From: Anadara kagoshimensis
Taxonomy: Eukaryota; Mollusca; Bivalvia; Arcoida; Arcidae
Assembly: GCA_021292105.1 (NCBI GenBank)
Contig: CM037870.1
Location: 9,831,558 to 9,895,557 of the forward strand
Direction: 5' to 3'
DNA length: 64,000 nt
Shown here: piece by piece, positions 1 through 63,029 of the stretch
Position numbering within the stretch: position 1 is the stretch's first letter
Layout of the letters: every line of letters begins with the position of its first letter
Notes under the pieces: generated by a model
What the model saw: the letters and a program-made list of their open reading frames with translations, nothing else
What the model was told of the DNA's origin: nothing
Database searches by the model: none
Position numbers and translations under genes: made by a program

Positions 1-920
1 TAATGACACCTGTCTATACAGTGAAACCTGCTATAGAGACATGACCCTACACTTACATTAAAGTTGATAAGCATTCCATCATAACCATCTACTGTCAGCT
101 TCTTCATCATGTCTAATACAGACATAATATAAAACTACATAATGACACCTGTCTATACAGTGAAACCTGCTATAGAGACATGACCCTACACTTACATTAA
201 AGTTGATAAGCATTCCATCATAACCATCTACTGTCAGCTTCTTCATCATGTCTAATACAGACATAATATAAAACTACATAAAGACCACCTGTTTATACAG
301 TGAAACCTGCTATAGAAACAAACTCTACATGACCCTACACTTACATTAAAATTGATAAGCATTCCATCATAACCATCTACTGTCAGCTTCTTCATCATGT
401 CTAATACAGACATAATATAAAACTACATAATGACACCTGTCTATACAGTGAAACCTGCTATAGAGACATGACCCTACACTTACATTAAAGTTGATAAGCA
501 TTCCATCATAACCATCTACTGTCAGCTTCTTCATCATGTCTAATACAGACATAATATAAAACTACATAAAGACCACCTGTTTATACAGTGAAACCTGCTA
601 TAGAAACAAACTCTACATGACCCTACACTTACATTAAAATTGATAAGCATTCCATCATAACCATCTACTGTCAGCTTCTTCATCATGTCTAATACAGACA
701 TAATATAAAACTACATAAAGACCACCTGTTTATACAGTGAAACCTGCTATAGAAACAAACTCTACATGACCCTACACTTACATTAAAATTGATAAGCATT
801 CCATCATAACCATCTACTGTCAGCTTCTTCATCATGTCTAATACAGACATAATATAAAACTACATAATGACACCTGTCTATACAGTGAAACCTGCTATAG
901 AGACATGACCCTATACTTAC
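1..920. repeat. Tandem exon-intron repeat, 139/148-bp unit
   Basis: Two unit types, 139 bp (TAATGACACCTGTC start) and 148 bp (TAAAGACCACCTGT start), alternate irregularly. Each holds one ankyrin-gene exon copy. The intervening intron (CCTGTCTATACAGTGAAACC) resembles the ends of the dispersed element at 19454-19636 and 52886-53072. Confidence 0.9.
57..859 (-). CDS. Six tandem copies of one 78-nt exon
   Basis: Exon copies lie at 782-859, 633-710, 484-561, 345-422, 196-273 and 57-134. Each is 26 codons, FYIMSVLDMMKKLTVDGYDG then MLINFN, bounded by TGTAG and GTAAGT, and all are in phase 0. They differ only silently (AACTTT or AATTTT in the second-last codons). Between them lie 61- or 70-nt introns. 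Any number could be spliced in without changing frame; whether all are used, or are alternatives, cannot be seen. Confidence 0.65.
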
Positions 921-3900
921 ATTAAAGTTGATAAGCATTCCATCGTAACCATCCACTGTCAGCTTCTTCATCATATCCATATCTGATCTTCTTATAATGT
1001 CAACATAAAACTAACAAAATAAAATAATATACAGTTTAACCTGCTATGTAAAGACAAATTGATGTATCACCTGCCACTCCTTTAATGTTCAGACACTGGC
1101 GGATCTCAAGGCACCAAAGCAGCATCACAGCAACTAATGTACTAGTGTCAGTGACGTCATTAAATGGCACAATTCAGGCTAGGTTTTCATTTTTTTTGTG
1201 TGAACTTCAAGCATGCCGGCCTTTGTCAGTACAGTGGGCGTGGCCGCCAATCCGTCAATTCTAAATTATGATCAACTGTCTATTACCACCAGTGTTTTAA
1301 GGCCTCTTAACTGTCTTATCTTCCAATTGCAACCAAAAATAACCTACATAAAGACCACCTGTCCAGAAAGACCAGTTTTAAACTTTTTTCGCTTCCTATT
1401 CCAAACAAAAATAACCCCTACCACCACTTATATTGAGGTTGTCTGTTCATGAATGGTGGAGGAAAGAAAACCAACAACCTTCAACAAGTCAACTGACAAC
1501 ATTTCTCTTACTTGGATGTGCTTGAGTGAGATTTGAACATAGGTGGATGACAGGTGCTCTGATCTTAAATGCATGCTTTTGGCCACTCTGTCCCCCTGGG
1601 GATAGGGGGTGTTTACAGTTATGTCTGTCTCCTGCATATGGATACAATAATTATGTAGGCCATACCTTATCAATGACTTCCAGAAGATCAATACGTCTGG
1701 CAAATCTAGCAACATCTCTTACTGTACTACCAGTCTACAATAGAAATATAACTGCTGGTAAAGAACATCTAAAGTATTATTTCTATCAATATATTTTATC
1801 AAGTTAAATAATGAATTTCTTCTCAATCAGATTTATCTCATTAGATTATAATATACATGTATATGCAATGGTGATGGATGTAAATATGCATCCCAAAAGG
1901 TTCAGTTGACAATATTAACATATCTAAATGCTTCAAAACAGAGTGGAGTAATGGTGTTCAACATCCCAGTCAAGATTTTATCACTTGGTTTTATCACTTA
2001 TATTAAGGCAATAAATTTTCTGATTGACCTTTATAGTTTTTTGGGGTTTTTTGGAGAGGGGGGGGGGGGCTGTTGTCACAAAAATTATTAAAACAACATT
2101 GTTATTACATTATCTCTATCTCCAATATAAGCTCCATTTTTCAGCATGTACTTAAAGAAGTCAATGGAAATTAAACCATTACATCTGTCAACAGCATAAA
2201 TCATCACATTTCTTCCTTTCTGAAAATTTAAAGAAGACAAATGTATATAACAAAACATTAATTCATTGCCACCAATTGTTCAATTGGATATTGGGTACAT
2301 ATAGAGAGAGACTTGTAAAGAAAAACATACAACAAATAGATTGGAAAATTTTCGCATCATATAATTTTTGTGTGAACGCACTTAAATATTTATTCGCATC
2401 TTTTAATTTTCGAGTGGTCGTGACTCTGTAGTTATAATTTTAATTACTGCTTATTTTTTTTCCGCGAATCTTTAATTTTCGTGACTCATTTCACTCACGA
2501 ATTTGCGCCAAAATAAAACGATCGCGAAAAATTTCCCAATTTACAGTTCTATAGCAATAAGTGAGGTTGCAAAGTTACTGAGGGCATTATATCCAAGTTT
2601 AGAGGTGACAAAGTTATCACAATTGTGAACTAAATCTTTAACTTAAAACTTTCAGAATTTATGTAATGCTGGGGTATTACATTCTCTTTTTGCTGTAATG
2701 GATGTGGAAACTTGAACAAAAGTATCACATTTGTAAACCAAAAACTTTCCGATTGGAAGTTAACCCTACAGGAATAATATCCCAAGAGGTATTATATAAG
2801 CTTTTTGTATTTTATTCAGTATATATAAATTAAAATGAATTTATTCTGTAATTACAAACCTCATCTTTTAAGCTGAAGTCTGCGTTGGACATCAGTATTT
2901 TCCATGTTATAATACTTGGTACGTCAGCACTGATAGCCTCAAAATAAAGTGGTCCCTATAATACACCAAAAATAAAGAATTTTAAAATTTGACTTAAAGT
3001 ACAATATTTGTAGAAATGTTTTGTGACTAATAGTCACCACAGAAAAAGTTAACTAACATACAATATAAAACAATCAGCCAATCAAAAACAATCAATTCTG
3101 GTCATTGACCAACAAATAAATAAACAACTAAACGATAAGCAAACAAACAAAGAAATAAACAATCTCACATGTTTATGCCTGGATAAACTACTCATTCAAA
3201 AAATGTTTTTTTGGGGTTTTTTTTTTGTTTTTAGAGATAAGTGAATATGGGTGTTTAACAAGAGCATTAATCAGCATAAAAACTCAAAACCAACACTGAA
3301 ATACCATATGTGTTTTTTAAAATGTCCTGCCTGATAAAGAACCAAAACTCTAGGTTTGTGTACATCAATAAACATTTTCTCTTGCCAATATAAATCATAA
3401 ACTCTCAAAATTCCATATATAAAATAAAATTCAATTTATCTACCAGTAAGTGGATATTATACAATTATAGCATTTCAGTGAGTGCGATATGATGTTTTAT
3501 CGGCAAAGAAAAGCAATATTGGCCGAGGCCGTAGGCCGAGGTCAATATTACTTTTCTTTGCCGATAAAACATCATATGGCACTCACTGAAATGCTATAAT
3601 TGTTTTATTACATGTAAATTATTTTAAAAATGAGAAGACAAGTGTTATTTTTTACTAATAAATATATTTTGCCTTTTATGTTCCGACACTGGCCGCCATC
3701 ACGGTACCAGAGTAGCGTCACGGCAACTAATGACGTTCTAGTGTCTGTGACGTCATTAAATGACGCAATTCATTATTTTTGTCTTCAATTCAAGTTTCTA
3801 ACGGTGGATTTGATTGGTTTAGTGCAATATGGTGTTTTATCATGTTCCAGAGTGCAATATGATGAAAAACGATGTTACGCGTGCAAGTAGTTTAACCAAT

Positions 3901-6900
3901 CAAAACAAAGATCTCAGAGTAAAATCATATCATAATGTAATAATATAAATTATTGGTCATTCAAATAATGCCTAAAGGTCAAAACTTGAAACTGCTCCTA
4001 GAAAAAACAATTAAATATGAAATATGTTTAATTATTCTAAGTATGGTAAATATAGTTTAAAACTGTCACTTATTGCTTGAAAACCTCAAGTAAAAACATT
4101 TCTGACTTTGAGATATCTTATACATCCTTAAAAAGTTTTCATCATCTAAAGAACAAAAAAAAAAAAAAACAACATTTTAAATTTTAAATTCCATTCCTAA
4201 TATCTCAACATGACTAACATAAAGTGAGCACATTGTACAATATCAATACATACATAAATACAATGTACTAAATAACATACATGCAATACTAGCAGAAATC
4301 AAAGTACTGAAATTACTGCATTCCTGCTGGATCTGAGAACGTCAACCAGATTGACAACATATACACATAACAAGCTCTAGATGTCATAAGAACAGTGTAT
4401 GGTAGCTCGCTTTCATGTCTTGATTATCAAACAAATTTAACCAACATTGTTTAAACAATGGACACCATTTCTTACGCTTACATCAGGGATTATATAAGCT
4501 CTGCTGTAATCTATGTAAGCAAGCTAAAAATAACTACACATTTGAATACAACACAACTCACATGCATGCAAATTAGTATTTTTTCTAACAATTATTTTTT
4601 AACAATACAAAATTTCACAAACAAAGGTATACAATAATAGTTAATGGGGAAATAAAACCTGAAGAGTCTAGAAACAGTTCTAATGACACATATTTATAAC
4701 ATACATACAGCATATAGGTCAAAGTCAAATAATTAGATGTAAGCCACAACACAATTTTACAATACACAACATGCATGATTAATTACAAAACATACATAAG
4801 AATAATTTCAATATGTTTAACAAGATCGACACAATGTAATGTGATGTCCCATACATATGTGGGCTCATGTAACTATATCAGTACTATAGAGAACATTCTC
4901 TGATCCTTAAACAAAGATTTAACAACATGCTATAGACTGGGAATAGATATGAAAATCTTCTATTTAATTTTGATGTCAGAGAATAAATGTTACTGTTGGT
5001 TACCATGGTTACATAAAAAACAAATTGTTCCATAATGTCATATAACATGGTTTCTAATCTTGCTGAATGTTCTTGTACCTGGATATTGTAAATTACTGCT
5101 GGTCAAATTGTATCAGGATATTGTACATAACCATTGGTCACATGACTAGACTTGGAGCTCATTAACAAAGAGAAATCCCAATTGAACTTTGAAAATATCA
5201 ACAATACTCCATGAAGTTGCTAAGTGTTCGACACTTTGCAGACTAGCTGTTATATGCCTGTAATATATATATCCTATATGTTCAGCCTGTAATCTCCTTC
5301 TAACATTATTATCATTTAAGTCATTGTGGTAGTATGTAGCACCACATCCATTACCAATGTGCAGCACAAATTATTGTAGTAATCAACCTTTCCACTAATA
5401 AAAACCAATTTTGTGCAAAGATATACATGTATAATATGCAAAATTCTGCAGGTGCATTTCATGTGCTTCACCACTGTCCTTCTGGCTTCACAAAATTGGC
5501 ATATAAAAATCAAAAACTTTGAAAACGTTCCTTAACTGAAGAGGACTTAACTACTTAAATCATTTGTACCAAATGCAAATTTAATTGGTTCTCATGATAT
5601 TTTGAATAAAATCCTTAATTAAATGCTGATAACATTGATACTTCTTCTGAAAATAAGACATCTAACATAAAAATATCCTATATTGCAATTTATTCTAATT
5701 TCATTTTTAATTGGATGCATGCAGTTAGAGTAAGCATTTAGTTATAAAACAGTAGCTACTTTGACACCACTGATTAATTTCCAGATTTGTGAATTTGTCA
5801 TTATTGGTTTATGAAATAAGGGAGATTGTTTTGATTTCAGAAAGTATTTATCAATTTACCATTCCTTTTGACTGTTTACACAATCTTGATAATTATAATG
5901 TAGTGTCTATCTGGAAACATAGTTTTACATTTTGTTAGGATGGGAGTAAGAAGACATAAGCAAGTCTATGGAGGTATACATGATTGCATTAAAATGTATT
6001 TTTTTTTACTTCCCAGTGATTCTGCATTTTAAAAGTGAATGTATATCTCAGTAATTATTTTTTATCATTTTGCTACATAACTTGACCAAAATGTAAACAG
6101 AAATTAATTAATTCATTGTAAATGTAAGTTGCATATATTTATGAATACAAAATTCTACATGTACAATGTTTGTAAGAATTCTGGATGTACTTTATCATTT
6201 GACAAATTAGTTATAAGGGATAACTTACACTAAAACTTTGATTTTTCATTTTACCTGGTTACTTTTGACTGTTTTTCTCGAGTTTTTGAAAGATGCTTTG
6301 ATGATGGCAAATAGTAACATTATACATGTGACAACATCCAGTCACACTGGTGTTATGATTTCAATATAGGATTTACTTTTTAACAAGCAATTGTGTGTCA
6401 ACCAGTTGTATTATTTTGTGTAGTTTCTTTCTTGTTATTTAAATTTTCATACATGTGACAACATCCAGTCACACATGTGTGTTAAGAATCAAAATACAGT
6501 TTTTTAACAAGCCAAGATGGCTATTTACTGTAACCTTTGTGTGTCAACCAGTTGTATTATACTGTGAAATGCCTTTGTTGTTATTTTCAATTATTTTAAT
6601 ATATCCACACATTTCAATCTATAATTCAATCCATTATAGCAAAATCTGTTGAATGATAAATTTTATGTCAGAAAAAATTAAGATTTTACCAATAAGAATA
6701 AATGTTCTTACATTTCATATAGCACCACCTCCTAAACTAAATAATATGTAGGTGATTAAAATGCATACACACATTTCAGGATGGTTCTAAGTTAATCTAA
6801 AATATGATTCAGGAACATCATAAAATATAAAATGTATTGCCTGACCAACAATGATGGAGATGTTTGACTTGGAGGTTATAACATGATGTGGACTCCTGAA

Positions 6901-9900
6901 TTTACAAGGTAGTATTCTTACCCTAGCCAGGCTAAGTAGGGTGCCTCTAAACAAGTCATTCTATCCTTCATTACTCCAGTGAATCCAGCTGTTAATACCT
7001 CAATTGAGTCATTCACTTTTATTGAGACTATCTGAGTGATGGTGAGGGAACTGTGTAGAGTAACTCTCCCCATCCCAAGTTACCACTGAATTTGTATAAG
7101 TGAACTGACAAACTTTCTCACATTAGGATATGCCATGAGTGTAGCTTGAACCTAGGTTGTTGTGAGAGGTACTGTGCTAAGTAAGCCAGTGCTTTAGTGA
7201 ATTTAACCAATGAGACCCAACGAGACCTATTAAGACTTATTTAAGAATCATTATAGTGTTTGCTGAAAAATAGGTCCATCAATTTACTTTGTGAACATTA
7301 TAGTAAATCAAAAGTAAAATATAACTGTTTAATTATAGTAGGACAAAGAAAAATTTTAAAAAATCAAAAAGGATTATCTACTAAAAATATGACCAAAACA
7401 ATTGTACAATGTATTACTATTTATATGTAACATCAAACTAGTCTAACGAGTTGACAGATGATACTAATTAGATCACAAATCATAAAACATTGACAACAAA
7501 TTTATATATCAACAGATTCTACTGATACTGTGTAAAACACCATTATAATGTTATCTGACGACAAAACTGTCCTTACCCAAACATTTATATCTGGCTGGAA
7601 ATGTAAATCAGTATAAAATCAAGATGAGCCCAAGACATTCATAAACTTATATAAAACACTATGATGGTACATCTTAGTAGTAACATAAAGTACTGCTACG
7701 AGACAGTACCGGTCTGTCTGTAAAACTAAGGTACTGCTACGAGACCGTACCTGTCTGTCTGTAGAACTAAGGTACTGATACGAGACCGTACCTGTCTGTC
7801 TGTAAAACTAAGGTACTGCTACGAGACCGTACCTGTCTGTCTGTAGAACTAAGGTACTGATACGAGACCGTACCTGTCTGTCTGTAAAACTAAGGTACTG
7901 CTACGAGACCGTACCTGTCTGTCTGTAGAACTAAGGTACTGATACGAGTCTGTCTGTAGAACTAAGGTGCTGATACGAGACCGTATCTGTCTGTCTGTAG
8001 AACTAAGGTACTGCTACGAGACCGTACCTGTCTGTCTGTAGAACTAAGGTACTGCTACGAGACCGTACCTGTCTGTCTGTAGAACTAAGGTACTGCTACG
8101 AGACCGTACCTGTCTGTCTGTAAAACTAAGGTACTGCTACGAGACCGTACCTGTCTGTCTGTAGAACTAAGGTACTGCTACGAGACCGTACCTGTCTGTC
8201 TGTAAAACTAAGGTACTGCTACGAGACCGTACCTGTCTGTCTGTAGAACTAAGGTACTGCTACGAGACCGTACCTGTCTGTCTGTAAAACTAAGGTACTG
8301 CTACGAGACCGTACCTGTCTGTCTGTAGAACTAAGGTACTGATACAAGACCGTATCTGTCTGTCTGTAGAACTAAGGTACTGATACGAGACCGTATCTGT
8401 CTGTCTGTAGAACTAAGGTACTGCTACAAGACCGTACCTGTCTGTCTGTAGTAACATAAGGTACTGCTACGAGACCAAACCTGTCTGTCTGTAGAACTAA
8501 GGTACTGCTACGAGACCGTACCTGTCTCTCTGTAGTAACATAAGGTACTGCTACAAGACCAAACCTGTCTGTCTGTAGTAACATAAGGTACTGCTACGAG
8601 ACCGTACCTGTCTGTCTGTAGAACTATCTATTACTATTACATGTATATATATTGCATAACGAGAAATACTCACAGGTAGAAACTTTCATGGTTTAACATT
8701 CAGAAACATGTTTGTGTGTACTTACTTCCTCGATTGACAAGCTGGTAGGTAAGACCATTTGTATTTTTTTAAAATGAGGTTGAGACTTGAGAATGAAAAT
8801 TGTGAATATTAATACAAAGTGAATGATTCTCGTTATACATTAGATTTAGTTATTTCTTTCAATGCAAATACATTGTCATTACCGTACAATATATATTTTT
8901 GCAGTCTGGATGTCTCAGTTGTCTTTAAATACAATAGATACAAGTTATCATCATGATCATATTGTAGCAAGCTGGGTGTTTTAGTTTGTATAGCACCTGT
9001 TGATTTTGAAGAAGGTCTAGGGATCAAGACTCAATCCAACCCAGCAGATTGTCTCTTTCCTGTTACAGTTTGGTGAGAAGTGTGGCTTCTTAGTAGTGGA
9101 CTCACAATTGTTGTTGTGCATGTATTAAGTTCATCAAAGGGAATTTGGGTGTTTCGTTTCCAAAGTGTAGGAAACTCAAGAAGGAATAATGCATCCTAGG
9201 TAGTAGAGTTGATAGACCTCTTGTCAATAGCATGTATATTATGGCAAGACCACAATTTGTGCCCCAGTCCATCATTGCAGGTTTTAACATCCTCTTACAA
9301 TATCAAATTTCTAGTGGAACAAATAATTTCAATAGGAAATCAGCAAATTAGATAAACAGTCTAATACAAAATATCCTAAAATGTTCCCTAATGCCTATTA
9401 TTTGATTTTGTTCTTTACACCTTTGGGTGATTAGTAGGTACAGTAATTGCTGTATGAGGAACCCCCTCACAAATTCAATTTTGTGTAAAAAGACTTGATT
9501 GCTTGAACAAATAGTACATCACATTATAAAAATCTATGTAGCCTTAAACATATCTGAAAATAAACTTTGTACAATTATAAAATATTTCTTTTAATTCATC
9601 AACTTTCGATCATGTTCAATCAATATACAAAGTTTGAAATGACTGTTGTTGAGACTTTTCCATAACCATGTTATTAAAAAACATACCAAAAAAACAAAAA
9701 CAAACACATACTGATACAAATATGACAAAGTATAAAAAGAAAGAAAGTTTTCAAAAATTTGAAAATCTGACAAATTAAAATTATGAAACAATACATAATA
9801 CATGAAATTTGAAAAAAAGTTTGGTGGGAATTTATTTTTTATCTGCCCACACATTTCAAAATTTATGAAAGGCTTATTAACAAAACATATATTTTGAATG

Positions 9901-12900
9901 AGAGAACTAGCCAATGTTTTGTGTCTTGGTATATATATGTATAATTTATAGATCCTCTGTAGAGTTTGAAACATAATAAGCTGCCCAGGGCTGCTACCTG
10001 TATACAGAAGATGGTTTATATTACAAGTGACAAAATATTAATGAAGGAGGAAAAGCTGTAAAATTTCCTCTTTGAAAAAATAACTTATTGAATAAAATCC
10101 AAAATTCCATCTCTTTGTGAACATTACTTTCTGATAAAAGAGGTTGGTTAGAGTGAAGTACATGTATAATGATTTTTACACCTAAATCAATCAAGAATAC
10201 TTGACTTATATAGAGGTGGTTAGTTCAGGAATGGAAGAGAAGACTGGAGTATACAGAGTAAATCACCTAAATTGTACAAGTAAATTGACAAAAATTCTAT
10301 TATGATCTGCCCAAGAAGGATACATGACCTAAATGATGAGAATCTATGATCTGATCCAAAAGGCAGTATTCTAGACAACTCTGGCTACAAGGTTAGAGGT
10401 GTTGTGAACTCTGCTTTTTAGACCACTCTCACTGTGAGGCATCTAGATATGTATGCAAAAGAACTGAAATGTGGAAAATAATATACAACAGATATAAAGA
10501 ATGTTTAACTGAAGCAATTTGATTTACCCTGAAATACTGTTTAACAAGGATGGATACATTGACGTCTGCTCCAGCATCACAGAGTAGTTGTACCATGTGA
10601 TAATCCTTCAGCTGTAAGGCATATTGTAAAATATGGCGCTTCTGGGATACCTAATGTGGCAAAATATAAATGTAAACATACATATTAGTATCGATCAGTA
10701 TGTCCAGTCAACTGTAAAATTCAATATCTATATCAAATATAAGATATCCCAAATACTTGGTCTAAGGCCAGAGAGCTATCAACAACAAAATGAAATAAAA
10801 AGTTCCAGTGACACTCAAGCAAAATAAAGGAAATCTTTTTTTTTTTTTTTTTAAAAAAAAGACTGATTTTAAACTCCTGATTTTAGACAGGCACTGTGCA
10901 TAACAATGAAATAGTGTCCAGTGATGTGGTTTAGATACTTTTTAGAAAAGCACACCAAACAATTGAAATGAAACATGGGACATTACATGTTCAATTTCCA
11001 AGAGAACAAAAAGTAAAATTTGTCTGTCTCCCTTATATGATTGGTAACAGACCAGACCACAAAACACCTAAACTGGAGCTAGGAAGTTACTGGTCAGCAC
11101 AGAGGGAATCATTAATAGCTGTTGATGGCTGAGAGTTAAAGATTAATACTTATACTTTTTATTTTAGATTACTTCATTATGTAATGTTATTGTGTGTCTT
11201 AATACATAAATTTTAACTCTAATGCAAACATTTTGTAAACAGAATTTTGATTGGACTCCGACCACAGGAAAATCTGTTTTACAGTTAAAGTTTAGATGTC
11301 ACATGCTCTCTTGGTTACGATTACATAATACATTCCTAGACACTGGTACATGTGCTTTTGTTTAGAAAACATAAAGAGGTCATTCTTTGTTATAAACAAA
11401 CATCTTGTTATTTCTAATTACTGATAGACATTTATTTGGCATCTGGTATGTATTTCAAACAACTAAATTATTAAATCAGTGCATTTTAATGTTTTAGTGA
11501 TAGAACTATATTTTTGGTGTAACGTTGATGAGTATGTACTCAATATAAATTCTAATTGGGACATTAGGAACCTTCATCAATTCAATCTATTTTTATAGTA
11601 CATGTATATTTTATTTGATTTGCATTAGAATGAAGATAAGCAATCATTGTCAGGTGGACCTTAATTTGTGATTGTAAAATCCATGTTTTATAGTCAGTAC
11701 TCTTCAAATACAAAACAGTTATCTAATTTTACTATAAATAAAGATATATTTTATATTGTAGTTACCGTATTCAGATAGTTGATGTTACATTTTGGTTTCT
11801 TGGCTACTTCTCTAACTTTTTCATGATTTACTTCTAAAACTCCATAAATAGCATCCTACAAAACAGGGCAAATTAAAATGTACATGTATTTGTAGAAAGG
11901 TAGAGATATACATGGTCAATTGATTAAGCCTAAGTTAAATTCCGAAATCTTCTTGTGGGACAATTAGTCACGTTACTTGCCAAAGGTTGGTTGTTTTCTC
12001 TAGCCACACATGGTTTCCTCAAACATCCCAGAATTGACTGCTTCAATATAAGTAAAAGAACCTTGACTGGGATGTAAAACAGCATAACTCTACTCTACCC
12101 CACTTGTGATGAGCTTAAACAGTGTGGCATGAAATAATAAACAAGACATGTGCCTTTTCAGAGATTTTGTTTGCTTAAATTTACTACCAAATAAAGGTAG
12201 TCTCCCCTAGGAAAAAATTACTAAAATTTCCCAATTTGTCCACTAAAATTCCCAAAACAAAATTGATGCACTGAAAAACTAAATTTATTTGTCCTTACCC
12301 ACAAAATATCATAGTACGACAATAAAGTGTCTTTGCAATGAACTCATTAGCTATTACCAGCATATCATAATGCAGTTTCCTAGATCTCAGAACTTCAATT
12401 TTCCCATTATTAAAGGCAGAATGTAGTTATCAAAATGTAAGAAAATCACTGCTGTTAATACTTATAATGATGTTTATTGTTGACTTACCATTGTTGGTTT
12501 GTGTTGATCTAGTATACCCACTATATCATGATATCTTAATGAAGCTGCATACTGTCTAATTGTCTGACGATTCTACAATTATCAAAGAAAATTAACTTCA
12601 CAAACCAAATTATTATAGTTACTGTATAAATAGTCAGAAGTTATTATAGAGAATGACTTACATAAACAGCAATCAAGATCACAAGCTTGAAATATCTTTC
12701 TTAAAATAGTATTTTAAAAATAACTAGAAAAACTGTTAGCCACAAGCTCACAAAAAATACCCCCGCTCCCCCCACATTGAACAGATCAAATTTTTAAATA
12801 GGAGGTGCACATCTACATTATAGCACAAAGATTGTGTAAAAGTTTCATGAAAATCCATTGAAGGGTTTAGGAGGAGTTGCGGATAAGAGATAGGTACCCT

Positions 12901-15900
12901 AAGGTGTAACGGAAGGACGGACACACGGACAGACACCCCTATCACTATATACCCCCCACTTTTTAAGCGGGGGTATAAAAATATAATTTTAAGTGATGTT
13001 ATGTTACAAACCATGTTATTTTAATTGAACATATATTTTCTAGAGTAAAATTAAACTTAGAATAACAAGATTCTCCTTTGAAGACATAACTGAATAACTC
13101 TCTTATTTTCATATTGCATTAATCAAAACATTGATATTTTAATATTTAAATTTTCTGCATGTTTTCCCAACTACCTCTGTAGTTATTCTAATTATAATTG
13201 ATTTGTCAGCTTTCAACGGCCAAGTGTAATGTACCGGTAAACAATACATCACACCACACTTATTTTTCAAGGAGAAAAATACTGGGTTGGACCGGAGATC
13301 AAACCCAGGACCTCCTGTACTATAGACGAGTGCTCTATCAACTCATCTACCCAGACTGTGACATTCCCTGTTATTTTTTCATTTCCAACTGTCCAATGGG
13401 AAAATCTCACCCAAATCCCCTTAGATGGACTTTAAATGGCCACAAAACTGCCAGTGCACCACTTCTAAACTTCCAAACTGTACCAGGAAGAAGAAAAATG
13501 CAGGGTTGGACTGAAAATTAACCAGGGACCTCACACATTACAGGCGAGTGCTCTACCAACTGAGCTACCCAGTTCGTTACAATTCATGAATGCCTCATGA
13601 TAATGTAGCCAAGCAACTTTATGAACAAAATGGCTGTTATATTTATTGGCATCACATAGCTTATCATGTTGTATATGGCAGGAATTTAATGTACCATAGT
13701 ACAACTATCTGTCTACCATTGTTCATGTTGTTTGTAAGGTGTTTTAAAGATGTAATTTCCACTACTAAATTCAGAATTAATTATATTGTCTTCTAACAAT
13801 TTGCCTTTTTACCTTCACAGAGTCTACTTTACACCAACAATGAAGTAATTCTAACACTCTCGTCACATCATGATTTTTAACAGCTTCAAATATACCAGGC
13901 TTAAAAAAAGAAAATAATACACTTTGAATTTTTTTCTAATATTGGTAAAAACATCATATCATTTGCTTTACTTAGGAGGGTATGGTAAATACATGTATAT
14001 AAAAACTCAAAATCACTAATGTTATATACAAGCTAAAACAAAAGTTGTAGGCAGGAACATTTTTGTTATAAATGTACATGTAGCATCTGTTAAATAGGAA
14101 TTAGTTTCAACACATCCTCTCTCTCTCTCTCTCTCTCTCTTTTCAATCTACAAATTTACATGCCCCTATATAAATGCTAGTTGTTCAATGTTTGAGAGGT
14201 TTAATCAATGATTACAATAATTAACAAATATTTAAAATATCAAAAAAAATCTAAATTAATAATCAGTATTCCAATCAGTATTGTAAAATCAAGTCTCACA
14301 GGTGGCCCATAGTTAGGTGGTTAAGCTCAAAGGCTAATGACTGGATCACTTAATCAATTTTATAGTACATAAATGAACAAAATTATGTATATTGTTACAA
14401 CTTCACATATACGTATAGTAAATCCTTGATTCATTGCCACTATTTATTAAGTGAAATTTTTGGCAATACTTAGAATAAAGAGATCTGGTGTTAAATTGAG
14501 AAATGCTCATAAGAAAAACAGAAGAAATAGATTTAAGGACTTGAATATAGTGTGATAAATAAGGTGGTAAAGTATCAAAGGAGTATAACAACACGGTTTT
14601 ACTGTACATATATACAAGTATTGCTATATATACCTTATAATGTTCATATACAGACTGCCAATACTTATTTCTAACACACATTTCCATTGGTGTTCTGTTA
14701 TCCTGTAAAATTAAAGTTTACAATTCTCAATTATAATGTTCATATACAGACTGCCAATACCTATTTCTAACACACATTTCCATTGGTGTTCTATTATCCT
14801 GTAAGATTAAAGTTTACAATTCTCAATTATAATGTTCATATACAGACTGCCAATACCTATTTCTAACACACATTTCCATTGGTGTTCTATTATCCTGTAA
14901 AATTAAAGTTTACAATTCTCAATTATAATGTTCATATACAGACTGCCAATACTTATTTCTAACACACATTTTCATTGGTGTTCTGTTATCCTGTAAGATT
15001 AAAGTTTACAATTCTCAATTATAATGTTCATATACAGACTGCCAATACTTATTTCTAACACACATTTTCATTGGTGTTCTGTTATCCTGTAAGATTAAAG
15101 TTTACAATTCTCAATTATAATGTTCATATACAGACTGCCAATACCTATTTCTAACACACATTTCCATTGGTGTTCTGTTATCCTGTAAGATTAAAATTTA
15201 CAATTCTCTATTACAATATTTATATAAATTATATTTTAGTTCACAAAAGTTTTGCAAAAAGGAGAATCAGTAAAATAAATATTCAATCGTCACTCATCTT
15301 CCAATGTTTTGGCTGCTAAGGCTTTCTTAAGTATTCACATGCATTAAAAGTCGCATTGTTTACAATGTTTATAATATTACATATCATTTATAATATTATA
15401 TTTTAGTTCACAAATAATTTTAAAAAAGGTGAATCAATAAAATAAATATTCAATTCTAACTCATCTTTGAAATTTTTGGCTGTTAAATCTTTATCAAGGA
15501 CTGACATACCTGTAAAGATAAAGGCTTAGCAATCAAAAACTTTGAAGATGAGTGAGAATTAAATATCTAAAATTACATTTGCAATTTTTTTAACAATGTT
15601 TAAAGGCATAAGTTACTCTTTCAAAAACAATAAAGTGAATGTTTGATATTATGAATCAATCCCCCGCAAGCCAGACATATCATAGTATGACAAATATGTC
15701 TATTTCCTTTTACAATGCACAATTTACACAAATTATCAACAAATTTTAAAAAAATCAATTAAGTTGTACATGTATTTTTAATACTTGGTTACCATATTTC
15801 TGACTTTGCAGTGTCAAGATTTTTTAAATATGATTTAAAATACTTTTAAAACACATATATATGTATGAAGAAAATATTTAGTTTTAAAAAATATAGCAAT

Positions 15901-18900
15901 ATTATCTCCACAACTTCACAAAATGAGTTGGCAATTTATGTTGCTAATGGGAAACAAAATTGTTTATGTTGTAATATTGTTTAACTTAACATTAGCAACC
16001 TTTTGGCTATTCATGACAAGAGAGTTGAGTTGAGTAATGGTGTTTAACATCCCAGTCAAGAATATTTCACTTATATCGAGAAGTCGCCAGCTATAGGCGA
16101 AGGTGCAGGAATTTTGCCTGTGTGTTGCGCTGATGGCATTATACAGCAGGGTTCTTTAACGTGCCAAGCCCACCGTGACACGGGACCTCGTTTATTTTAA
16201 GTTCCCATCCAAAAGAACCGTGACTTTCATTTCGTAATGCCGAGTGCTTGGCGAAAGAACAGTCACTACCCACTTTCAAGTCTTGGGTCAGACCCCGCCG
16301 GGGATCAAACCCACAACCTCCCACATATGGAGCGAGCACTCTACCAACTGAGCTACCGCAGTGGTTATATTCATGACAAGAGAAAATTCATTAATCTCTA
16401 TAAATTAATCTAAGAACAAGTTTGTGTATTTGTAGATATGGGAGTGTTTTGTGGTCTGTCTAGTACTAGTTCGGACTCAGTCGGCTTTAAGTGCACTAGT
16501 GATAGGACACAGCAGAACAGAAATACTTACACAAAACTTACACACCACATGATCTTGTGTTTATATTTATCCTTGAGATTAAGAAGTAAAAAATGTCTTG
16601 TAATAAATAGATGAAAAATTGCTGATGTGATGTAAAACAACATTCAACAAACCAAGCAGTTATTCCTTGAAAAAAATAAAGAATAGATGGACAAGAAAAT
16701 ATGTTCAGCTATACAGACTTTTCTTAAGGGCATTTTTATGCAATATAACTAGCAAATTGAATTAACAATATTTAGTTATGTTTACCCTAGTTTTCATATT
16801 TGGGTCAGCTCCACATACAAATAAATCTGCTACATGACAAGAGTTATCTTCCTTGGCTGCTGTCACATGTAATGGTGTATATCCATACTGAAAAGAATGA
16901 AACAGACATTTTTATTATTCCTCCATGTTTGTATATTTTATAAACATATAAGATAATGCAATGTACAATATTATATGGCTATCGAACTGATATCGTGAAA
17001 TATTGTCACGAGTTGACTTGAGATTTGCACAAGCTTGCAAGTGCAAATTTTCGAGTCAACAAGGGACAATATTTCACAATATCAGTTCAATAACCCTTTT
17101 ATAACTATAGCAAAATAAATTTTGTTTACTTCCATCAAGTATTTCATCTAAAATTGCATTTGTCATACAATATATAAATATTACACTAGTTCTTGATAAT
17201 GGATATAAGAACTAGTACAATATGACAACACGGCGATGACATCATCAGCCACGTTACAACAATTGTATGACGTCATAAACGATAGCATCATGTGACAAAG
17301 CATGCAGTTTAAAAAAATTGATTTGGTAAACCTCAGACTGTAACAAAGTTAGCGTGCAAATATTGATATTTATTGCAAGACCTCGGGATTTATCATTTAG
17401 TTTTTATGCAAGGCATATATTGCTATATAATAATAAAGATAAGTCCTGTTAAGTATAAAGATGTAATATTGTATGTTTATAATCATGATATTGTGGTGTT
17501 GTATGTTTATAATCATGATATTATGGTGTTGTCTGTTTATAATCATGATATTGTGGTGTTGTCTGTTCATAATCATGATATTGTGGTGTTGTCTGTTTAT
17601 AATCATGATATTGTGGTGTTGTCTGTTCATAATCATGATATTGTGGTGTTGTCTGTTCATAATCATGATATTGTGGTGTTGTCTGTTTATAATCATGATA
17701 TTGTGGTGTTGTCTGTTAATAAAGATGATATTGTGTTGTCTGTTCATAATCATGATATTGTGGTGTTGTCTGTTCATAATCATGATATTGTGGTGTTGTC
17801 TGTTCATAATCATGATATTGTGGTGTTGTCTGTTCATAATCATGATATTGTGGTGTTGTAATCATGATATTGTGGTGTTGTCTGTTCATAATCATGATAT
17901 TGTGGTGTTGACTGTTCATAATCATGATATTGTGGTGTTGTCTGTTCATAACCACGATATTGTGGTGTTGTCTGTTCATAATCATGATATTGTGGTGTTG
18001 TCTGTTCATAGATTAACTAACACTTTTCTGTCAGCTTTTTAAATTGTTGAACAGAGTGAATGAGTTAATGGAACTTGCCATAAATAGTGGCCATATTGAG
18101 AAGATGTCCAGAGTAAATTCAACTCATAGTAATAAAACTTGCCATTAATAGTGGCCATATTGAGAAGATGTCCAGAGTAAATACAAGTCATAGTAATAAA
18201 ACTTGCCATTAATAGTGGCCATATTGAGAAGATGTCCAGAGTAAATACATAGTTTACTGTAACAGCTTTCATTGTTTCATCACAGTTACTCATTAAGGTT
18301 AATCAGTAGGTTAAATTCCACTTTAATCTAAATTTATGTAGGAGCAGAGTAATGTTTTACATCCCCCCCTTTTAAAAATTTCATTTATTTTGAGGCCAAA
18401 GTGGCTGAGTTGTCTGATGTGCATGCTTCAAGATCCCAGTACCAATCACTGCCTAAGTTTGAATCCCACTCAGGCAGATCTTACCGTAGTAGCTTGTCAG
18501 TTTCCCTGCTGAAGGTTATTAATTTTCTCAAGTATTTTGGTATTTTATACCATCCTTGTGATCTATTATAAAAGTAAAATATTCAGACCGGGACATAAAA
18601 CTCCATGACATCACTCTAAAATTATTATTAAAATGACAAGCAAATTAGTAAAGGTACTTTTTGTGATTTGCACTTAGTTCAAAGGGCCATAACTCCCAGG
18701 AAATTGAGCAAACCAACTTCGATTAATGATATACACATCTTGTATCAATGTTAATGCTTTGCATTAAGTTATGTAAATTAGTGCTCCACAGATCTGTAGA
18801 ATTACTAAGTATTCTAGACAAGAAGTGTCTGGATGGACAGAAGGCACAGAGAAGTTTGAATTTAATATTGCCTGCCTTTTTTTAAGAAAAGACAGGGATA

Positions 18901-21900
18901 GCAAAGTTAATGTGCAAAATAAATTGAGACGGTATTGAAGTAAGTTCAAGTTAAGTACATGAGTACCTAGGCCTTCACAAGCATGTTAATCATGCACTGG
19001 TATCCAACAAAGAACACCTGTTATCCTGTTATTGAGTAATGTTTTTATAAGTATGTTTAACAAGAAGTAAGAACAGGTGTCTGGTACACAAGGTAAATAA
19101 ATAACAAACAAAACACATCAGGGCCAAGTTGTTTAAAGTTTGATTAGTAGTCAAAATTTGTTTTTTGCCTTATATCAAATATTTTGTGAATTTTTTGTTT
19201 AAATCACAAAAAATGAATAGAATTTCATCAAACTATTTTAAATTCTCACTAAATCACTGATTCAATTAGCCAAGCTTTGAACAACTCGGCCCAGGTCATG
19301 ATGGGATAATAATAAAATGATGTTTTTTGATTAACCTGTCCAGTCAGGGGGAATAAGTAACATTTAACCTTTAACTTTTATTAAATAATTAATGTTTATT
19401 TCTATCAAATAGTTTTATATTAATCCATTTAATGTTTTTCTATGGTTTGAAATACAGTCAAACCTGCCTATAAAGGCCGCCCAAGGGAACCAGAAAAAGT
19501 GGCCTTTATGGACAGGTAGCCTTTATATAAGGTTCAAATAACATGAAAAAAAAACCAATTGGGATACAATTCTACTGGCTTTATAAGCAGGTGGTCCTTA
19601 TATAGTGGTGGTCTTTAAGACAGGTTGGACTGTATATCAAAATATGTGTGAAATGTAAAAATAATTATGTTTTTTATTCTCCTCTAAAGTTATATGTCTT
19701 AAGTATATGATGTTAAATCTCATTATTTAAATAAACCATGAGTAAATTTACCTTATTCTGAATATTGACCTCAACCCCAGCTGCTATCAATATATAAAAT
19801 ATAAACGGCCGGTACATTGTACATACAAAATGGATATAATTGTTTCCTTTCTGTTAAAATAAAAAAATAAAAGATTTTAATTTAAAATTGATAATTAAGA
19901 AAGAAATTAATAACTACAGGAACAAAATACTTAATATGAAGAAATATATAAACAAGATCTACACTGTTTCTGCAACAAGTAGAAAATATTCTGTAAATGT
20001 ATTGACTTTAGCCTAATCTGTACAAATTTTAACAGAAATTAAAATTTTGGTGATTTGAGTAAATATGCATCATCTTAAATTTAAATTAAATAATTCTATC
20101 AGATCACCTTGAGTACTATGATGATACATTGTATTTAATTTTGTATTGGATTTAAATTAGTGCCACTTATCATTATCATTATTATGCGGAAATCTCTAAA
20201 ATTAGTACAAGTCTTAGTATGTCTCTAGTATCCCATAATGTAGTCCATTGTCAATATAAAGTATATATTAAATATATTCCATATTTCCCACCAAGCATTG
20301 CCTAACAATTGCTGTACTTAAATGCTTCCCGCTTTGTGGACTCATCTGATCTATATAATGTCAAAGCAACATCAAATAAATCCTGATACTGAACACAAAT
20401 ACTTTGACATTTACTTTACAACTCTACTGTGCTTTGTCAAAATCACCTAACAACCTTTTTTCTCTTAACGGTAATTTTTTTGCACATATGAAATGTGAAA
20501 TTATAATTAATTATTATGACAATAATAATTTAAACTACAGTAGTATTAAATCTTACCCAATCCTTAAAATGTACATTTTCACCACTAGCAATTAAAGATT
20601 TCAATTCTTTGATATCAGCAGCTATAATAGCCTGACCTATCTTGGTCTGTAAAACAACACAAAAGGCGATTAATATAAGTTAGCATTGCAGAATCTAAAA
20701 AAAACAACAATAAATGATTGCAAAAATAACTTAACTAGCAGGGAGAAAATATCTGGATCCAGTTGTCTTGTGTGTGGATGTGTCTTTTTGATAGATTGAT
20801 TCAATAAGATTTTATGTCCCAGTCAAGAACATTTCACTTATATTGAGACATCATCACCTATAGGCGAAGTGGCAGAAATTTTTACCTTTGCAGTGCACTC
20901 AGGGAAATGTGCAGGGAGGGTTTATTAACGTCCCACGCCAGCCGTGACACAAGGCATCAGATTTAAGGTCTCTTCCGTAGTAACCATGACTTTCATTTCT
21001 AAATGCCCAGTGCTTTGGTGAAAGAACAGTCACTACCTATATTCAAGTCTTGGTCAGGGCCCAGTCAGGGTTTGAACCCACTACCTTTCACAAATGAAGT
21101 GAGCACTTGATAGAGGATATCCCATACACTTAACATTATAATTATATGCTGATGGTGTTACAGGGGTAAAAAGTTATTGTTTATTTTGTTGAGACAAGCT
21201 AAAAATGATCATATACAAATAAAAAACAAAATTTGATCAAAACGTAAATTTTTTAGTCGCTTTCATACTTCAACATTTTTTAATATTTACAAATAAAAAA
21301 CACCATATTGTGTAATTTTGCAGCAAATATTAAAAATGTATACCGGTAACTATAAAATTAAAACAAATAAGGCTTTTAATGTTTAGGATCACACCCTCTG
21401 GCCAAGTGAGAGGCTAACCATGCCATTATTTTGCCATACCTGAGCCAGTTGTCTCATTTCTCCTGCCATGTTGAAGGTTATTTAAGTTTAGGCTCATACA
21501 CACACTGGTTGATATTAATCACCTGAAAATACAAAACAGTTAATGGTTATAACAAATACAATTTTTTTCATGAAGAAGGGTTATCTTTTAGTGGAATAGC
21601 TTAATACAGAATCTGCCACTTAATGAATCTGAACAACTGTCTTTGAATCCATGTTGGACAGGCTTTCAGTAGACCATAAAATTACCGTAAGTACACACAG
21701 ACATGTTTCTGAATGGTAATCCACAAAAGTTTCTACCCATCAATATTTATTTTATACTGTATATATAATAGTAATAGACAGTTTAAAAGACAGGTAGTAG
21801 TAGTGCAGTACATGTACTAAGACAGTGTCATTGTGCTTTATAGTTTGTGAATGTCATGGCTTTATCTTGATTTTATACATTTACATTTCCAGCCAGATTT

Positions 21901-53257: not shown

Positions 53258-56200
53258 ATGAGTGATTTGGAGGTGCGACCACTTGAAGACACATTAATGA
53301 AGGTAACTGTAGCTGGCACAGAGCCTGTAATGTCGGACCAGGAAGACACATTAGTGAATGTAACTGTAGCTGGTACAGGGCCTGTATGTCAGACCATGAA
53401 GAGGAGGAAAGTCTAGACATGACAAACGAATCTGGGGTCGGATCAGAATACGATAATGAAGATAATCCAGAGAAAGAAAAATTAGAAGCTGTTATAAACA
53501 GTGCTTTGGATGGATTGAATAAAGAAAGACTTGTTAAAATGAATTTTGGAGGTATTCCAAAGTTGTCCCTAAAGTCTTATATATGTATAGAATGTGGAAA
53601 AGAATTCAAGAAGAAAAGTCGGTTAGATAGACACATGATAACACATTCATCAGACAGGCCATATGTATGTCAGGAATGTGGTAAAGCTTTCTCTTATAAA
53701 GATAGCTTAAAGAAGCACATGTTACTACACACGGGTAGCATGCCTGTCGAGTGTCCTATATGTCAAAAACAGTTTCCAGTTCAGAGTAAACTAAAGTCGC
53801 ACATGTGGTCACATTCAGAGGAAAAACGGCCTAAAAGGCATGTATGTACGTACTGTGAAGAGATTTACGGACAGAAAAGATTTAAATTGTCATATCAGAA
53901 CTCATACAGGAGAGAAACCACATGAATGTGAGACTTGTGGTAAAAGATTTTCTCAGATGAGTAATTTACGGCGACATAGAGCGGTTCATTTAGGATTACG
54001 ACCACACGAGTGTTCATTATGTGGATCTAAGTTTACAGAGAGAGGTAGTTTGAAGTCACACATGTTGATTCATACTGGAGAAAAACCTTATAAATGTGAC
54101 TTCTGTGACAAGTGTTTCCGTAAATCCAGCGCTCTATCAGCTCATAAATATATACACTTAGGTTATAAACCCTATGTTTGTGGTATTTGTGGGAAACAAT
54201 ATCGGGAGAAATATTTGTTAAATCAACATATCCTAATTCACTCGGGAGAAAAACCATTCAAATGTACTGTGTGTAACAAAGACTTCTTGTTGAAATGTAC
54301 TCTGAAAAAACACATGCTCTGTCACGAGACTATAAAACCATATAAATGTGAGATCTGTGGCAGAGAGTTCACCTTAAGATACCGACTGGAAAAACACATG
54401 AATATCCATGGCAACTTCAAACCTTTTGAATGTGCTGTATGTAAGAAGACATTTTCATTGGAAGAAAGTCTACAATATCATATGGCTTCTCATGCCGGAA
54501 GTGACATGTATATGTGTAGAGTTTGTGATATGCCATTTTCAAGTCGGCAAAGTTACGAAGCACATCTACAAACTCATTTAAATGACCCTGAAGATGAAAC
54601 AGACATGAAGGAAAGAGAAATTGTTAGTAGCATACTTGATTTTTCTAACAATAATGAATTTTTAATGCAGCTAAATGAGTATAATGATACCAATAGTGAT
54701 GCCAGTGAATCCACATCTCAGGAAAACTCGTACATAGATGGGGCTAGAAAGTTTGCTGGTTCCGACAAAACTGATGCTCAGTTTTCAACAAGTAAAACCA
54801 AAGAAAATATCAAACATAATGAGTTGAAGACTACAATTATAAAAAGTAGTGGTTCTTATAAAATCAAAAAACCTGCAAAGGCTTCATTGTTAGATATTGT
54901 TAGTAAACTTAAGGAAAATAAACAAAAAGATGATTCTGAAAAAGAAGACAATTTACCGGGTAATGATCAGTCGACGGATGATGACCAAATGTCAGAGGAT
55001 GTTACCCAGCACATGTATATACAGGTATTAGATAAGACTCCGTCTATAGAAAGTGACATGTCTCATAATCAGTCGTCATCAGAAATGAACGGCACTGGAA
55101 CAGATGTTAAAATAGAAAATGGTATGAATAGTAAAACAAAGCAACAAGGTAAAAAATGTGACGATGAGATAGAATCATTTATAAAAAGCAAATTATTGAG
55201 CATGTATAACTTTCAAAATCAAGGTAACCATGGTAATAGTTTGAAATCACACGGTCAGGTCAACACAGACAGGACAGAGAAAAATTTCAGTAATGAACAT
55301 GGATATGAAAATAAAATGAACTCAAAGGGGTTGAAAAATTGTGAGGGGGTAAAACAAGAAAATCATGTAACTATGCCGACAGAAATGTACATTACTGGGG
55401 ATTATGGGGGGGACACTGATGATGAGTATAATAATGTAGGTGATGAAAGGTTTAATAATCTGGCTGAAAATCAAAACAATTCTGAGGACCACGGGACAAA
55501 CATGAATGATTCCAGTGGTAAGATGATAAATATGGGAAAAATGGAGAACCATGTGACAAGAAATACAAAGAGTAATGACATGATTACAAATAAGTATGGG
55601 GATCAAATCCGAGAAAGTGGTGGTTATGATAACCACAATAAAAATTATTCCAAACATGACAAGATAAAAGGTGAAAATAACATTGAAACAGATACAACAA
55701 TGATGGTTCACAATGAATATATTGATGATGCAACAGTGTTTAACATGACAAATGGCGGCAATCAGAATGAGTATGTTGATGAAGATAAGGACGAAGCCCT
55801 TCACAGGTGTGGAATATGTAATAAGAAGTTTAAATTGCTAAAGTATCTGATAACTCATATGTCCACACACACAGGCGAAAAGGCACATCAGTGTGGTGTG
55901 TGTGATAAAAGTTTTCACATGTAGAGTATCTGAAGAAACACATGGTGCTTCATAGAGAAAAATCTCATAAATGTGAAGTGTGTGGTAAAATGTTCTCGAG
56001 TAATAGTTTACTAAAAAGACACTCCTGGACCCATTCAGATGTGAAGCCACCTCAAAAAGTCAAAGAAAAGACCCATTTATGTGGTGTTTGTGGCAAAATA
56101 TTCTCTCAGAGCCGATATTTAAAAGATCATGTGCTGATTCATTCGGGAGAAATGCCTTACCAGTGTCGTGTCTGTGAACGTCGTTTTAGAACAGCGAGTT

Positions 56201-56847
56201 GTCTCAAACGGCACATGATCATTCATGCAGATAAAACAAGTGAAAATGTTCATAAATGTGAAATTTGTTCCAAAGAATTTTCCAGAAAGGGTATCTTGGA
56301 AGCTCATCTGAAAGTACATGCAGGTCTTAGTCCCTATCTTTGTCGTTTTTGTGGTAAACAGTTTACTACTTCTTACAATTTACGTTGCCATATTGTCTCA
56401 CATACAGGCGAGAAAGAACACAAGTGTGATTTTTGTGGCAAACATTTTGGAACTAAGTGTGTCCTGAAACGCCATCAGCTGACTCATACTGGCATCAAGA
56501 AACATCATTGTCATATCTGTCAGAAAAACTTTACACAGAGATACACTCTAAATAAACATATGAAGACACATTTCAAAACAAAAATCGCAGATCCAGAATT
56601 TCACTCAGAAATTTTAGATTCAGGTTCTCATCAGTTAGAACCATATCAGTCACATAAAGTTTCGTTGGAAGCATTTCAACCTGAGGAACATGAGTCAGAT
56701 GTTGAGAATTCTAGGTCAGACTTACAATCAGAACCTCAGTATTCAGATGAACCAGCTTCAGGAGAATTGGATTTAGACTCTCCTCCTAACGATTTCTTCA
56801 AACCAGATCTGCTGTTACCAGTACCTCTTCAATCAGATAGTCACTAA
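53258..56847 (+). pseudogene. C2H2 zinc-finger protein 1, three frame breaks
   Basis: One long exon with about 21 C2H2 fingers: 12 between 53574 and 54580, an acidic Asn/Ser/Lys-rich linker of about 400 residues with no fingers, then 9 between 55800 and 56570, and a Ser/Glu-rich tail ending 56847. Linkers such as HTGEKPHEC and HTGEKPYKC are typical of DNA-binding arrays. The frame breaks three times: one base lost near 53384 (second copy of a 57-bp duplication), two lost near 53860-53867 (inside finger 4), and one lost near 55922 (inside finger 14). Pieces: 53386-53925, 53840-55924, 55942-56847. It could be a recent pseudogene or could reflect consensus indels; the breaks are not in long homopolymers. 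If functional, the product would be a nuclear DNA-binding regulator. Paralogue of the gene at 63030. Confidence 0.75.
53286..53403 (+). repeat. 57-bp direct duplication at the zinc-finger gene 1 N-terminus
   Basis: GAAGACACATTAATGAAGGT to GTCGGACCAG is repeated as GAAGACACATTAGTGAATGT to GTCAGACCATG. The second copy has lost one A (GTAATG to GTATG), which closes the frame from ATG 53258 at a TAG near 53411. Confidence 0.8.
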
Positions 56848-62710: not shown

Positions 62711-63029
62711 TTTGTAAAGCAATGGAAGTGACAAGTACATACAGATGGTGTGTGACAACTCCACAAAGACATAAACAGCAATGGTGCTTAAGTTACGTAC
62801 AGATGGTGTGTGACAACAACAGCAATGGTGCTTAAGTTAAATATGGATGGAACTAATAGTTTAATATATCTTTATAAATCATGCTAATTCTGCATTATAT
62901 AAGACCAGGAGGAATGATACTAAGTTACTATTGTAGTGCAATGTGTTGAGATGATACCACTTTAGAGGACAACCTTTGTGAAAGTATCTAGTATTTGGTG
63001 CAGAAATCTTTGTGAACGACTCATAAACC
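62711..63029 (+). other. Likely 5' leader exon of zinc-finger gene 2
   Basis: TTTTTTTTGTCCACAG ends at 62710 as an acceptor. The leader contains a duplicated ACAGATGGTGTGTGACAAC and several short upstream ATGs. TAA lies in frame two codons before the ATG at 63030. Confidence 0.45.

Follow-up and report, generated by a model that had tools for sequence, protein, structure and literature searches.

The tandem array at the start of the window (the whole 64,000-nt stretch of Anadara kagoshimensis DNA analysed here) is quite probably a recent minisatellite that lies across an exon-intron boundary of an ankyrin-repeat gene and is neutralised by exon definition, with use of the 90-nt exon alone and a single block spliced into the protein. 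The copies that make up the array are most likely intronic by-products ignored by splicing rather than usable protein blocks, because each has kept its donor and none has a convincing acceptor. On the minus strand the 90-nt exon 13 is followed by six copies, the last 78 nt of each preceding GTAAGT.

921..1010, minus strand: exon 13, the intact 90-nt parent (FYVDIIRRSDMDMMKKLTVDGYDGMLINFN), phase 0, acceptor ttttgttag, donor GTAAGT; block aligned in 36/36 retained homologues
860..920, minus strand: spacer after exon 13, 61 nt
782..859, minus strand: copy c1, class AAT, 24 nt of non-exon sequence and the 54-nt tail of exon 13, then the donor
633..710, minus strand: copy c2, class AAT
484..561, minus strand: copy c3, class AAC
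345..422, minus strand: copy c4, class AAT
196..273, minus strand: copy c5, class AAC
57..134, minus strand: copy c6, class AAC; the repeat unit continues beyond the window start
711-781 (71 nt), 562-632 (71 nt), 423-483 (61 nt), 274-344 (71 nt), 135-195 (61 nt) and 1-56 (cut), minus strand: the other spacers
1..974, minus strand: whole tandem array across the exon 13/intron 13 boundary, unit 139 or 149 bp (Tandem Repeats Finder)

An earlier description made from the letters of the DNA (the sequence-only reading) had proposed a tandem array of a 90-nt exon and six protein-identical 78-nt copies, and coordinates, translations and Tandem Repeats Finder all agree with it. The translation FYIMSVLDMMKKLTVDGYDGMLINFN is common to 6/6 copies, the shared donor GTAAGT is present in all seven, as is the AAT-GTAAGT junction, and the scores returned by Tandem Repeats Finder (1370, 1628 and 1809 at three periods) mean that the array is not a product of chance. 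The introns of 61 or 70 nt given in that reading correspond to spacers of 61 nt, as stated, and of 71 nt rather than 70. Each unit of 139 or 149 bp comprises the last 54 nt of exon 13, the donor and 85 or 95 nt of intron, and the units lie head to tail across the exon-intron boundary, gap-free and at high identity, as in a minisatellite or internal tandem repeat. As the window start falls inside the array, and cuts the last spacer to 56 nt, the copy number is a minimum of at least six extra copies. The six copies form two sequence classes, A (AAC with 61 nt; c3, c5 and c6) and B (AAT with 71 nt; c1, c2 and c4), in the order B B A B A A along the gene from c1 to c6. Copies of one class are identical throughout the 78 nt and for 56 nt into the spacer, and since the copies fall in two classes the array holds just two independent sequences, which differ by a single silent change in the 78 nt.

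Extent, origin and variation of the repeat unit

What had been described as full 78-nt exon copies matches exon 13 over 54 of the 78 nt. In a BLAST search of exon 13 against the window, the copies align to nt 37-90 only, at 94-96% identity, and their first 24 nt show no detectable similarity to the first 36 nt of exon 13 (p = 0.31). Apart from a shared motif, the upstream flank, with the acceptor and the initial third of the exon, is no more similar than expected by chance (p = 0.48 for class A and 0.67 for class B). Whole-exon copies with a homologous acceptor and donor, as expected of a usable tandem exon duplication, were not found. The shared motif is a 20-nt stretch around AGCAGGTTnnACTGTATA upstream of the 54 nt, 90% identical between the units and intron 12; 16 nt of it also occur at 19452-19467. 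With this motif included, the parent upstream region beats shuffles when compared with the unit (p = 0.001 for class A and 0.002 for class B), and the joint alignment scores 35 against a shuffle mean of 17.9 (p = 0.001), an excess due mostly to the motif, which partly recurs elsewhere. An older whole-exon duplication whose first part was then lost is possible, and the simplest unit would be 54 nt of exon with 85 nt of intron (95 nt in class B). A dispersed element was rejected as the source of the whole unit, matches outside the array being just 16-20 nt or shorter: the motif CAGT[TGC][AT]AACCTG lies outside the array at 1032, 19455 and 53067, and the longest other match to the spacer there is 19 nt, at 1344-1362.

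We infer that the array began as a tandem duplication of a 139-bp segment running from the final 54 nt of exon 13 through the donor to nt 85 of intron 13, that a 149-bp variant of the unit was then acquired, and that unequal exchange or conversion spread the unit until intron 13 contained six or more additional copies. All copies have a perfect donor, and none has a true acceptor of its own. In splicing, the strong exon 13 acceptor would find its partner in the donor nearest to it across the exon, at a distance of 90 nt, and the array would leave inside one intron, so that exon 14 (in relatives YRDSFIY...) would follow directly on a single block.

Within the 54 nt common to the copies and exon 13 there are three variable sites, each of them silent (p = 0.026 with transitions only and 0.006 with all changes equally likely), a pattern that speaks for constraint somewhere. 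One of these sites varies among the copies and two further ones separate exon 13 from every copy; as two of the three divide exon 13 from all copies, the silent changes may have arisen in the functional exon 13. The recent expansion put forward in the sequence-only reading is supported by these data. Its statement that only silent differences have accumulated is true of the sites seen, yet these comprise just one among the copies and two more against exon 13. Selection on the protein of the copies, which it also raised, was rejected as a conclusion, the comparison between the two classes amounting to a single silent site. In a second array of the gene (described below), whose upstream copies offer no uninterrupted translation, there are three variable codon positions ahead of the junction, and two of them alter the amino acid (E/K, R/K).

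The host gene and its homologues

Exons 1-12 of the host gene (1666..21469) were placed by eye from splice sites and reading frame, and homologues found afterwards align along the translation.

21440-21469, minus strand: exon 1, from the ATG
20557-20646, minus strand: exon 2
19752-19850, minus strand: exon 3
16786-16887, minus strand: exon 4
14634-14702, minus strand: exon 5
13813-13899, minus strand: exon 6
12489-12572, minus strand: exon 7
11766-11855, minus strand: exon 8
10528-10650, minus strand: exon 9
2860-2955, minus strand: exon 10
2109-2219, minus strand: exon 11
1666-1734, minus strand: exon 12

The lengths of all placed exons are multiples of 3, and the other 12 introns of the gene measure 374-7572 nt. 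The translation contains Pfam Ank_2 (9.3e-20, 71.4 bits against a cut-off of 27.3), which identifies an ankyrin-repeat host. Its closest proteins are Tegillarca granosa KUTeg_002160 (P0001, E 3e-182) and KUTeg_002164 (P0005), each 94% identical to the translation in the multiple alignment. BLAST gives 77% identity over the whole query for P0001 and 89% over 32% of the query for P0005, low values in identity or coverage that arise because the gene models skip some exons. P0001 and P0005 come from two near-identical genes that share a contig, and each model leaves out several exons present in the ankyrin gene of the window; they are possibly a tandem pair with imperfect annotation.

In the predicted model of the homologue P0008 (mean pLDDT 87.2) the first helix of the repeat spans residues 63-78 and the second residues 82-90. 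Exon 13 corresponds to residues 72-101 by our residue count; the first helix therefore begins in exon 12, and a copy holds just a part of it. If the gap is set where the DNA alignment has it, residues 357, 359 and 360 are substituted or missing in the copies, and the turn is lost; among the homologues, R357 is conserved in 35/36, S359 in 34/36 and D360 in 30/36. A chain of copies would probably not form complete repeats.

The 36 homologues retained comprise 8 of 70 from a first search and 28 of the 30 new ones among 36 from a second, in which scoring covered the 7,991 candidates with the most words in common. Those dropped were 62 weaker ankyrin matches (E 1.5e-21 or worse, many unnamed or bacterial) together with P0099 and P0100. 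Most of the 36 are gene models. The alignment places a single block at the position of exon 13 in all 36, and a strict regular expression finds one block in 21/36, none in 15/36 and two in 0/36. The block joins the next exon directly ([YHCSG]RD) in 33/36, the three exceptions being P0073, P0004 and P0092. Six homologues (P0008, P0074, P0077, P0079, P0080 and P0085) are short contigs of 1800-3271 bp with 427-710 residues in one frame, presumably transcripts, and the direct junction is present in each of them; P0008 is 98% identical to T. granosa P0001, and the homologues are not known to be from Anadara kagoshimensis. The longer matches are mostly molluscan 'RF_0381-like' ankyrin proteins, with some from a brachiopod and annelids. 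The molluscan genes annotated as 'putative ankyrin repeat protein RF_0381' are relatives of the host gene, 43-98% identical to a query containing part of P0008, and none of those retained has a repeated exon-13 block, unlike the array in the window. A query made of one parent and two copy blocks, for which proteins 0.55-1.75 times the query length were eligible, returned P0101 alone, with a single block. In P0101 an open stretch of 42 codons lies between the block and YRDSYIY, which suggests that intron 13 may be short, about 126 nt, in some relatives.

The three exceptions each have features of their own. P0073 (Ylistrum balloti) has four extra residues after the block, VSVG, that match read-through of GTAAGTGTAGGG, the spacer start in the copies, and a conserved alternative donor is possible. 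In P0004 (Dreissena polymorpha) YRDTFIYA, the eight residues with which the next exon opens, occurs twice with a gap of seven residues, which looks like a partial exon duplication on the acceptor side of the neighbouring boundary, or else a gene-model error. P0092 (Mactra antiquata) has low-complexity read-through at the same intron position, a long D/N/V/A-rich stretch suggesting that its intron there may also hold a tandem repeat.

Splice-site choice and competing readings

Acceptors were scored with a matrix built from the 12 acceptors of the host gene alone, placed by eye and homology. The TAG said to be kept as an acceptor in each copy ranks below all 12, scoring -5.6 in class A and -9.7 in class B, and a site 22 nt downstream, which would define a 56-nt exon, scores 6.4, inside their range. 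With exon 13 left out of the matrix the values are -7.2 (A), -11.3 (B) and 6.8 against a leave-one-out range of -3.2 to 13.9, and with a larger pseudocount -1.6, -3.9 and 7.4 against 0.8 to 12.2 for the placed acceptors. The 56-nt acceptor is preferred in 98% of bootstrap resamples over class A and in 99.8% over class B. The 78-nt acceptor has 6-7 pyrimidines in 15 positions and an AG inside the tract; the placed acceptors have 9-13, with such an AG in 1/12, and the 56-nt acceptor has 10. The donor of the copies agrees with that of exon 13 in all nine bases and scores 8.28 leave-one-out, the 13 donors spanning 1.0-10.95. The 78-nt reading is in phase 0 with 26 open codons, as the sequence-only reading had it. 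This phase is weak evidence for real exons because an open phase-0 AG is common by chance, its frequency being 84% and 77% in shuffled units and 42% in 85-nt slices taken at random. The further claim that any subset of copies can be spliced without loss of frame is not supported, since the acceptor it requires is the weaker one and the better, 56-nt site shifts the frame after exon 13 and runs at once into ACA TGA. The premature stop of a poison exon is found with the 56-nt acceptor only.

These scores bear directly on how the copies might be used. Poison exons, in which the better acceptor (TCTGTATTAG) yields 56-nt exons whose ACA TGA leads to nonsense-mediated decay and so lowers or tunes output, would account for a site that scores 6.4-7.4 by matrix, within the placed range and with 10/15 pyrimidines, and that is followed immediately by a stop codon. 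We nevertheless consider this unlikely: of 3,031 AGs scored on the minus strand about 2.7% equal or beat the 56-nt acceptor, such that a site of this type is not rare, and no conservation of it was shown. It is very unlikely that the 78-nt copies are cassette exons, spliced in frame in variable number to give proteins with 1-7 or more blocks. Such use fits the open phase-0 frame of the copies within a gene whose placed exon lengths are all divisible by 3, a donor shared base for base with exon 13, and exon differences that are silent as far as observed. Against it, the acceptor required falls below every one placed in the gene, open phase is expected by chance in 42-84% of cases, conserved R357, S359 and D360 are replaced or lost, and each block would be without the helix start that exon 12 encodes. 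Repeated blocks also occur in 0/36 retained homologues, and the query with two copy blocks retrieved only the single-block P0101. Mutually exclusive exons were rejected, as the copies are protein-identical and differ from exon 13 in its first third only; the choice between alternative exons envisaged in the sequence-only reading would, among the copies, be between identical residues. A broader version, in which a hypervariable in-frame array sets protein length, individuals with arrays of different length making proteins with different numbers of a 26-residue insert, or in which tandem decoy donors and poison exons tune output, is very unlikely. Such a protein-diversity device would be striking if true, but the sequence evidence points to an ordinary minisatellite. 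Also very unlikely is an assembly artefact, with copy number inflated from a shorter locus or from two haplotypes represented by classes A and B. Only two near-identical classes exist, as this would predict, but they are interleaved (B B A B A A) as in an ordinary array, and the window holds other arrays of different units.

For the minisatellite reading, we infer the splicing outcome in Anadara kagoshimensis from splice-site scores, orthologues and the proximity rule, under which the splice sites closest across the exon pair in exon definition (PMC9225289). The long introns of this gene (374-7572 nt) are a setting for exon definition. Three observations stand against this reading, namely the joint upstream alignment that beats shuffles, the three silent exon-13 differences and the short intron of P0101. 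Were the whole of intron 13 short, intron definition would favour the last donor; the array itself makes intron 13 at least 920 nt here.

A second array and related systems

A mirror-image array lies at exon 5 of the same gene.

14635..15226, minus strand: six 96-bp copies of the acceptor and exon 5 (Tandem Repeats Finder)

Only the last copy (14634-14702) has a donor, and the five upstream copies run into an in-frame TGA (...AAT TGA). Acceptor scores in this array range from 3.6 to 8.0, the top value being that of the used acceptor and also of one upstream copy. Whereas the array at exon 13 multiplies donors, that at exon 5 multiplies acceptors. In both, leaving single 78-nt inclusions aside, no tested pair other than the one closest across the exon gives an open frame, in agreement with the proximity rule for exon definition. 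As the exon-5 array shows, the gene tolerates partial exon arrays with dead copies. In this one gene a single acceptor is followed by seven or more donors identical in nine bases, and a single donor is preceded by six near-identical acceptors, which makes the gene a natural experiment on splice-site choice, asking whether proximity across the exon governs pairing.

That arrays target exons was considered and rejected, since array density alone predicts about two exons touched. With 21 arrays of period about 30 or more, merged by hand from 47 rows and with short-period arrays omitted, the expected number of exons touched, of 13, has a mean of 2.06 with P(>=2) = 0.62 over the window, and 2.08 with 0.68 over the gene span. 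Two of 13 exons touched is ordinary because 14% of the window lies in tandem arrays. The Pacific oyster assembly has been described as full of satellite-like tandem repeats (PMC7492417).

Gene structures altered by repeats at exon-intron boundaries have been described in human paralogues (De Grassi and Ciccarelli 2009, PMC2812944). The minisatellites of that account resemble the present array in having a tandem unit at the boundary, an altered gene structure and a recent expansion. They concern segmental-duplication paralogues with RNA evidence, whereas the case here is a bivalve gene with two opposite one-sided arrays, analysed at the DNA level. Tandem exon-like copies beside a parent exon also occur in two well-known systems, tandem exon duplications and mutually exclusive exons (PMC9013439, PMC9741552). 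Unlike in those systems, the copies here are partial (54/90 nt), have no convincing acceptor and are identical in protein, so that swapping them would change nothing. Pseudogenic, or decaying, exons (PMC2718932) are, like the copies here, duplicated exon pieces disabled within a gene. The copies at exon 13, however, are intact in their 54 nt with one splice side missing, and those at exon 5, which read into stops, fit better. Among the matches listed from the literature there was no bivalve counterpart of an exon-edge array.

Elsewhere in the window, palindromic stretches recognised by eye at about 3480-3600 and 17000-17100 resemble small inverted-repeat elements in introns of the ankyrin gene. 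On the plus strand, three overlapping C2H2 zinc-finger reading frames occupy 53287-56844 and another at 63027-63998 shares a finger segment with them; these are apparently neighbouring paralogues.
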